From: Acidobacteriota bacterium | GTDB lineage: Bacteria; Actinomycetota; Acidimicrobiia; Spongiisociales; UBA5794 | Length of the DNA: 53,357 bases | NCBI GenBank assembly: GCA_022562055.1 | Contig: JADFQA010000022.1 | Location: forward strand, 1 to 53,357 | Reading direction: 5' to 3' | Shown: positions 51,991-53,357 of the stretch, in pieces | Numbering within the stretch: the first letter of the stretch is position 1 | How the letters are laid out: each line of letters begins with the position of its first letter | Translations under genes and position numbers: made by a program | The notes under the pieces: generated by a model | What the model saw: only the letters and a program-made list of their open reading frames with translations | Told to the model about the DNA's origin: nothing | Database searches by the model: none

Positions 51991-52064
51991 CGGGCTGTGG
52001 CGCAGTTTGGTAGCGCACTTGGCTGGGGGCCAAGGGGTCGCCGGTTCAAATCCGGCCAGCCCGA
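51991..52064 (+). tRNA. tRNA-Pro (GGG)
   Basis: All four arms fold. The acceptor stem is CGGGCTG with CAGCCCG, the anticodon arm CTTGG-CTGGGGG-CCAAG gives anticodon GGG, and the T arm GCCGG-TTCAAAT-CCGGC is intact. The discriminator is A at 52064 and CCA is not encoded. It reads CCC (and CCU) codons. The following block of unusual genes makes its 3' end a candidate integration site. Confidence 0.97.
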
Positions 52065-52417
52065 CCGCAAAACCCCAATGATTCCAGGCTTTTCGGGGGT
52101 GGATGTTTGCTAGCCGAGTCGCTGGAGGCAACGAGTAGGCAACGAAACTTTCGAGAAATGTGCCGTTATTGCCCTTTTTGCGCCCTCTGATTTGTCTTCG
52201 TTCGCATACTGTGATCGTGTGTGCTTAGGCTGTGGTGCAACGTGTAGGCAAGCCTGGGACCGGAACCCATGTGACACGGATGCGGGACTGCCTGCGATAG
52301 CTTCAGATGCGTCGAAATAGGCAGGTGCCGCGGACACCACGCGGATACTGCATGGTAACCGTGGCCTTGAGTGGGGGACTCTTGCCTGCTTGTCGTTACA
52401 AGCCTGCGTGACTTGGA
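52065..52417. other. Gap after tRNA-Pro without a recognised gene
   Basis: The 353 bases hold no frame I would accept. GAGTAGGCAACGAAAC near 52130-52145 resembles the flank of a mobile element but matches nothing I can name. No second copy of the tRNA 3' end is seen in the window, so an attachment-site role is unproved. Confidence 0.45.
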
Positions 52418-52729
52418 CTAGCGATAGGCCCTCTCGTTCAGCTCGTCGTGGCGTCCTGCATCCAAGACGTGGATACATCTAGTATCGCGGTCAAGCATGT
52501 AAATGAAGCGCCAGTTATTGGTCGAGATTTTGTACTTGTAGACCTCGCCGTACTCTCTCCAAGCACGCGTACGGAGTCGCACTCGCTTGCGCGACTTCGC
52601 CTCATTGAATGGGTCGGCCTTAATCACCGCGATGGCCCGTTCGAAGTCTTGTCCTCGCCGTCCGTCCCTCTGGAGAAACCGAGTGACAGACGGTACTTGA
52701 ATGTGGGACCAACCGGTTTCGCTGACCAC
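52418..52729 (-). CDS. RelE/HigB-like toxin
   Basis: A 103-residue basic protein. The core reads VYKYKISTNNWRFIYMLDRD, then CIHVLDAGRHDEL: beta strands with the R-x-x-Y pattern and a final strand with HVLDAGRHDELNE, as in RelE/ParE-type toxins that cut mRNA on the ribosome or inhibit gyrase. Family members end with a similar strand and a short basic tail. The GTG at 52729 has AAGGA about 7 bases upstream. The gene follows the 132-residue protein by 10 bases, so that protein, not a classical small antitoxin, is its nearest partner. Confidence 0.7.
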   Translation of the reverse strand: MVSETGWSHIQVPSVTRFLQRDGRRGQDFERAIAVIKADPFNEAKSRKRVRLRTRAWREYGEVYKYKISTNNWRFIYMLDRDTRCIHVLDAGRHDELNERAYR

Positions 52730-52739
52730 CTATAGATCC

Positions 52740-53138
52740 TTAGCTCTGGTGGCGCTCGATCCGACCGAGAATGTCTATGACGGCGCTGGGCTCGGCGTGC
52801 TCGAACGCGAGCGTTTCCTCCCACTCATGCAGCAAGAAATCGATGTCGTCGGTTTCGGCGAGATCACGTATGAAGAGGGCGAGGTTGGCTTCATCGTCTA
52901 CCAGGGCCTTGAACAGAGACGACAGCGTAGGGTTCCGCGGTGTCGTCAAGACTTGATCGGTTATGACCTGAGTGGAGAGTACAGAGAGGAGGAGAGGAAA
53001 AGAATCGTCACTAGCGCGTGCCTCACTGACGATACGTGTGGCTATAGGACCAGCAGTCGTCGAGTAGACCACGCGGCTGAGGTAGTTCAAAAAGTGTGCG
53101 GTGTCAGCGTACTCGTTCGGATGGTCGAGGACTGTCAT
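52740..53138 (-). CDS. Unknown acidic protein, 132 aa, upstream of RelE-like gene
   Basis: A mostly helical, acidic protein (NYLSRVVYSTTAGPIATRIV, SLFKALVDDEANLALFIRDL, WEETLAFEHAEPSAVIDILG) without membrane segments or Cys. I do not recognise a family. It is too long and lacks the DNA-binding start usual for RelB-type antitoxins, but its acidity and position would allow it to neutralise the basic protein downstream (inference). The ATG overlaps the stop of the DUF3467-like gene by four bases, so three genes share one transcript. Confidence 0.6.
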   Translation of the reverse strand: MTVLDHPNEYADTAHFLNYLSRVVYSTTAGPIATRIVSEARASDDSFPLLLSVLSTQVITDQVLTTPRNPTLSSLFKALVDDEANLALFIRDLAETDDIDFLLHEWEETLAFEHAEPSAVIDILGRIERHQS

Positions 53139-53357
53139 GCTGTCTCCGATGTGGGTTCTGCATCGCCCTCAGCACCCACCGCCTGTTCCTTTAGCGAAAC
53201 AGAGAAATTGAGCTGGGCGAACATGTCTTGGATGCGGGTAGCTAGCCCCACCGAGACTACGACGCGCGCAACGACCTCGGCTTCCGTCTCCTCGCGATTA
53301 CTAGGCGACCCCACGGTTGCCTGGACGAAATCAAAAATGACCTCGTCTCGCAATTGC
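53135..53357 (-). CDS. DUF3467-like protein, C-terminal part
   Basis: At least 72 residues are visible, and the frame is open to the window edge, so the 5' end is missing. The segment DEVIFDFVQATVG followed by EVVARVVVSVGLATRIQDMF matches the pattern of DUF3467 proteins, beta strands around an FDF/arginine-rich VVxSxxxAxR core (family recollection). The function of DUF3467 is unknown. The C-terminal tail is acidic (AEGDAEPTSETA). It overlaps the 132-residue gene by four bases. Confidence 0.5.
   Translation of the reverse strand, partial: QLRDEVIFDFVQATVGSPSNREETEAEVVARVVVSVGLATRIQDMFAQLNFSVSLKEQAVGAEGDAEPTSETA

Follow-up and report, generated by a model that had tools for sequence, protein, structure and literature searches.

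A putative RelE-type toxin-antitoxin module with a DUF3467 gene at the end of an integrative element in tRNA-Pro

What could be the function of three small genes that are packed beside a tRNA gene, the last of which resembles RelE toxins and has no recognisable antitoxin? This question was raised by the window, a stretch of 53,357 bp that makes up one whole contig (C22) of an Acidimicrobiia draft genome (G000; 2.9 Mb, 83 contigs, 97% complete). The initial annotation placed three coupled minus-strand genes after an intact tRNA-Pro, and this layout was confirmed by ARAGORN and the ORF coordinates (Table 1). On the minus strand, the DUF3467-like gene comes first, the gene of the acidic 132-aa protein (the partner) second, and the toxin gene last. 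The truncation of the first gene is due to the assembly, because the window is a whole contig. The gene overlaps, which had also been claimed, hold for one junction. The DUF3467-like gene and the partner gene are coupled by a stop/start ATGA overlap at 53135-53138; whereas the partner and toxin genes are adjacent without overlap. The GTG start of the toxin lies 10 bases past the partner stop, and a Shine-Dalgarno-like AAGGA is located at that stop. A plus-strand frame (52701-53357, 219 codons) also overlaps the triad. It was discarded, since the minus-strand frames are kept as protein in a second genome (G026, Acidimicrobiia, same family but another genus) and were thus taken as the genes. The sole other tRNA in the window is tRNA-Leu(GAG) at 2274-2359.

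Table 1. Features at the tRNA-Pro end of the window (positions of the whole stretch).
Feature	Position	Strand	Basis
tRNA-Pro(GGG), intact, integration target	51991..52066	+	ARAGORN
attL core, 47 bp	52019..52065	+	Identical to tRNA-Pro 3' fragment on C28 (attR, C28:2290-2336)
34-bp sequence, tandem GGAGGCAACGA-GTAGGCAACGA units	52126..52159	+	97% identical to copy at C28 integrase gene end
RelE-fold toxin, 103 aa, GTG start	52418..52729	-	AF2 model, PDB fold searches, weak PF15781/TIGR02385, G026 relative
Acidic 132-aa protein, putative antitoxin	52740..53138	-	ORF, G026 conservation, charge; AF2 low confidence
DUF3467-like, C-terminal 73 residues, 5' end beyond contig	53135..53357	-	PF11950 E=0.017; G026 homologue 39% identical

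Judged from its sequence, the tRNA-Pro end of C22 belongs to a tyrosine-recombinase integrative element, the other end of which lies on a separate contig, C28. The tRNA copy on C28 sits about 165 bp past a tyrosine integrase of 396 aa (L023 934-2124; PF00589, E = 8.9e-20). Past this copy, C28 2290-3462 is collinear with G002 L028 6606-5433 (76%), and onward to 8508 (71%). G002 is a genome of the same genus, and its L028 segment runs directly downstream of tRNA-Pro; on the upstream side, the tRNA-Pro and Der of G002 match the window. G002 therefore represents the empty site, since the sequence beyond attR continues as it does in G002 directly after tRNA-Pro. The 47-bp duplication and this collinearity place attL on C22 and attR on C28. 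The repeat, the integrase, and the empty site together bear out the association with an island that had been suspected. Tandem GTAGGCAACGA-like units occur in a 34-bp sequence just inside both element ends; the two copies are probably arm-type integrase sites. A direct junction between the end of C22 and the start of C28 was rejected, because C28 opens with other sequence and has no DUF3467 start. An assembly chimera would be possible in principle in a draft genome, but both element flanks match the same single G002 locus.

Most of the examined relatives have their tRNA-Pro gene downstream of Der. In G009 (L034:5290-6134), a second tRNA-Pro 3' end is found about 725 bp after the tRNA-Pro that follows Der, which makes this gene a repeated insertion site. 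The insert between the two copies contains a rifampin ADP-ribosyltransferase-like gene (PF12120, E = 4e-40). The contigs of G001, G007, and G017 (L027, L032, and L036) stop 20-89 bases after tRNA-Pro, and the window contig stops 1.3 kb after it. Such breaks suggest variable inserts at this site within populations.

Structure prediction and fold searches sustained the RelE-like call for the last gene. The AlphaFold2 (AF2) model of the toxin, built on a two-sequence alignment, has a RelE-like topology (pLDDT 78, pTM 0.72). Its top Foldseek matches were YoeB, RelE, HigB, YafQ, HP0892, and their kin. VIA-align superposed the model on E. coli RelE (2kc8) with Z 10.8 over 83 residues and an rmsd of 2.2 Å. 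The three best PDB sequence matches of a two-toxin profile were also RelE (E = 0.024). The RelE fold can be regarded as a solid assignment of the model. The matches to PF15781 (16.5 bits) and TIGR02385 (16 bits) agree with it, and fall below the curated cut-offs of 28 and 27.9, respectively. Therefore, the toxin is a divergent RelE/ParE relative by fold, outside the curated sequence families. The catalytic residues of E. coli RelE are K52, K54, R61, R81, and Y87. The first three align with K65, K67 (R in the G026 relative), and R74 of the toxin. The R81 position is a histidine in both the window (H94) and G026 proteins, and the Y87 position is R100 in the window toxin and Tyr in the G026 toxin. 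These residue matches might favour an mRNase over a gyrase poison. The toxin is basic, with a pI of 10.2 and a net charge of +8.

The toxin had been described as lacking a recognisable antitoxin, and this description still applies. In the frame listing of the 352 bases between tRNA-Pro and the toxin, no separate antitoxin gene was recognised. Pfam and NCBIfam gave no credible family for the 132-aa partner, HigA, MqsA, and HicB included. The partner is acidic (pI 4.4, net charge -14), opposite in sign to the toxin. Its AF2 model is all helices at low confidence (pLDDT 46), and a fold search with this model was dropped because the model was too poor. The conserved portion of the partner is the C-terminal ~35 residues. 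The window and G026 proteins share 50% identity over 34 residues there, including DI-FLLHEWEET-AFEH--P. The position, charge, and conservation of the partner suggest that it might be the antitoxin, of an undescribed family, which is the natural reading.

The toxin-partner pair recurs at a second tRNA. On contig C152 of G026, a toxin with 44% identity to the window toxin lies 327 bp past tRNA-Ala(GGC), and the spacing is similar to that in the window (352 bp). C152 ends inside the partner gene, with the partner C-terminus present. Another G026 contig, C133, contains an exact 46-bp duplicate of the tRNA-Ala 3' end, an integrase that is both truncated and frameshifted, and a full-length DUF3467 gene (PF11950, 27.4 bits against a cut-off of 25). 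This DUF3467 gene has an ATGA overlap with the start of the next gene, where the contig ends. In the simplest reading, these pieces would form one small element (tRNA-Ala, toxin, partner, DUF3467, integrase remnant, and attR) with a break in the partner gene. ORF X of G026 was tried as the N-terminus of the middle protein; its similarity was not significant (126 of 500 shuffles scored as well), and only its position suggests this role. With a gap in the middle gene and such an N-terminal piece, the second triad is one that we infer across the two contigs. The expectation that the gene order would be conserved in other genomes thus holds for the toxin-partner pair; the triad there is split over C152 and C133.

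The pair was found in two of the 395 sampled genomes of the class, namely the window genome and G026. The phylum sample gave one more toxin match, which was marginal and within a 542-codon frame. No relatives of the toxin were found in the plasmids, phages, and viral contigs searched, or of the partner in the plasmids and viral contigs searched; a wider scan of genome contigs returned only G026 itself. Since the pair is so rare by sequence, the conservation evidence consists of one relative and looser analogues. The damaged G026 integrase would fit a decaying remnant, in which an inactive module persists because the element has become fixed. This explanation is very improbable, because in both genomes the frames of the toxin and of the partner C-terminus have stayed open, with a conservation of 44-50% identity, and the lysine/arginine positions known from RelE are kept.

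The RelE fold, the opposite charges, the antitoxin-before-toxin order, the tight coupling, the G026 pair, and the element evidence make it reasonably probable that the locus is a mobile type II-like toxin-antitoxin (TA) module, with an undescribed antitoxin family and DUF3467 as the third component. The module would lie within the tyrosine-recombinase element in tRNA-Pro, next to its attL end. Its last gene may encode a putative RelE-type ribosome-dependent mRNase. The middle gene may encode an acidic helical antitoxin that would bind the basic toxin, probably via its conserved C-terminal helices. By analogy with the TAC chaperones, the DUF3467 protein might stabilise or regulate the antitoxin, and may also sense a trigger. 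A cell that lost the element would be exposed to the freed toxin, and in this way the module would maintain the element in the population. In this scheme, toxicity, neutralisation, addiction, and the DUF3467 role are all predicted properties, and an obligate role of DUF3467 may be the weakest part. The location at attL agrees with the view that mobile elements are retained with the help of TA modules.

The proposed module shares features with several known systems. The TAC systems (M. tuberculosis HigBA-SecB, E. coli HigBAC and CmdTAC; PMC5105189, PMC11618068, PMC11980606) likewise consist of a toxin, an antitoxin, and a small third protein, and the TAC HigB toxin belongs to the RelE/ParE superfamily, as does the window toxin. 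However, the TAC third gene is SecB-like; whereas the third component of the window is DUF3467, with no detectable SecB sequence similarity. The TAC antitoxins are HigA, MqsA, or HicB, but the partner matches none of these models. The gene order also differs, with DUF3467 first and the toxin last in the window. The chaperone-addiction tails of the TAC antitoxins have no sequence common among systems (PMC5105189). By analogy, the window module perhaps works like TAC, yet it is not TAC by sequence. In the paaR2-paaA2-parE2 system of E. coli O157:H7 (PMC8630535), there are likewise an extra first gene, an antitoxin, a RelE/ParE-superfamily toxin, and a mobile element. PaaR2 is a CI-like DNA-binding regulator; in contrast, Pfam gives no DNA-binding domain for DUF3467, and the first gene and its G026 homologue match PF11950 only. 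The relBE and yefM-yoeB systems share the toxin fold and the RelE K/K/R residues with the window toxin. They are two-gene systems, whereas the window has a third gene, no known antitoxin family, and a toxin below the curated cut-offs.

The third protein can sense phage in CmdTAC (PMC11618068) and in HigBAC as described in PMC11980606. By the same logic, the triad might serve phage defence by abortive infection: DUF3467 would act as the sensor, and the toxin would become free once DUF3467 is released from the antitoxin. The mobile island location and the DUF3467 copies beside a DNA methylase and HEPN/MNT pairs (described below) are consistent with such a role. It is nevertheless quite unlikely, since PADLOC gave no match, and no defence genes were seen beside the triad in the assembled part of the element, the rest of which falls in the assembly gap.

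The call of a DUF3467-like first gene was in line with the PF11950 match of the window fragment, at 15.6 bits against the cut-off of 25 for a gene cut by the contig end; the G026 homologue is above this cut-off. The window and G026 copies belong to the same family (PF11950) as the standalone DUF3467 genes, but are divergent, operon-borne, and without the canonical N-x3-YE-x2-FG tail. The DUF3467 family was found in 74 of 396 genomes of the phylum sample, and the first 30 loci read were standalone genes beside ordinary genes. Standalone copies adjoin rpsL-rpsG-fusA in Bacteroides finegoldii, and lie two genes away from rpoC in Parabacteroides. Since in most genomes DUF3467 stands alone, its presence in the triad could be incidental. 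The locus would then be a two-gene RelE-type TA pair of the 132-aa antitoxin and the toxin, with DUF3467 unrelated and merely upstream in the operon. A viral-contig DUF3467 gene without a recognisable toxin beside it also fits this explanation. We regard it as a minor but serious alternative, against which three arguments can be raised. The DUF3467 gene is ATGA-coupled ahead of the pair in the window and, as pieced together, in G026. The phylogenetic tree places both copies in one clade (100/99). Finally, TA-like pairs also follow other DUF3467 genes of sporadic occurrence.

Above-threshold copies of this sporadic kind are patchy, being found in 2 of 60 relatives, 2 of 35 genomes in the family of G597, and 2 of 16 in that of G557. 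In G597 (L084:1992-2870), the gene after DUF3467 encodes a PBECR2/DUF4258-type nuclease (E = 1.4e-4) and overlaps a DUF2283 gene (2e-5); by sequence, this might be a second TA-like type headed by DUF3467. One gene run in G557 (L074:1054-2253) contains DUF3467, a 68-aa orphan, an MNT nucleotidyltransferase, and a HepT-like RNase (1.6e-24). In G605, DUF3467 is flanked by an IS element and by a DNA methylase that has a restriction domain; it lies near a HEPN/MNT pair in G645, and before two small unassigned genes in G636. It is conceivable, although doubtful, that DUF3467 was captured repeatedly as the third component (chaperone, guard, or sensor) of unrelated TA pairs, namely RelE with the acidic protein (window), PBECR2/DUF4258-DUF2283 (G597), and MNT-HepT (G557). 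This would be a new tripartite class parallel to TAC. Single-sequence DUF3467 scans of viral contigs matched one contig, which has no recognisable toxin beside the gene, and several divergent copies have no TA neighbours. The DUF3467-before-TA pattern is therefore a lead rather than a test.

Comparison of the DUF3467 profile with the E. coli SecB sequence gave a probability of 0.6%, with no sequence similarity signal. No solved DUF3467 structure was found in the structure searches, and of the 5.4 million papers searched, a single one mentions DUF3467. The proposed module would therefore offer a first functional lead for this family, and would add a RelE-fold toxin with a new antitoxin family. 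If DUF3467 is a general TA third component, it would be a second accessory class beside SecB, and the role of the standalone copies would become testable.

The window genome has a second DUF3467 gene on contig C26 (L024:6845-7699), which heads a coupled operon with two orphans (75 and 86 aa). A RelE identity of the 86-aa third gene was unsupported by any sequence search. In the phylogenetic tree, the C26, G557, and viral-contig copies group together (99/93), and several other copies are on very long branches with unsure placement. A CcdA-like/PIN-domain pair is located about 1.5 kb from the C26 operon.
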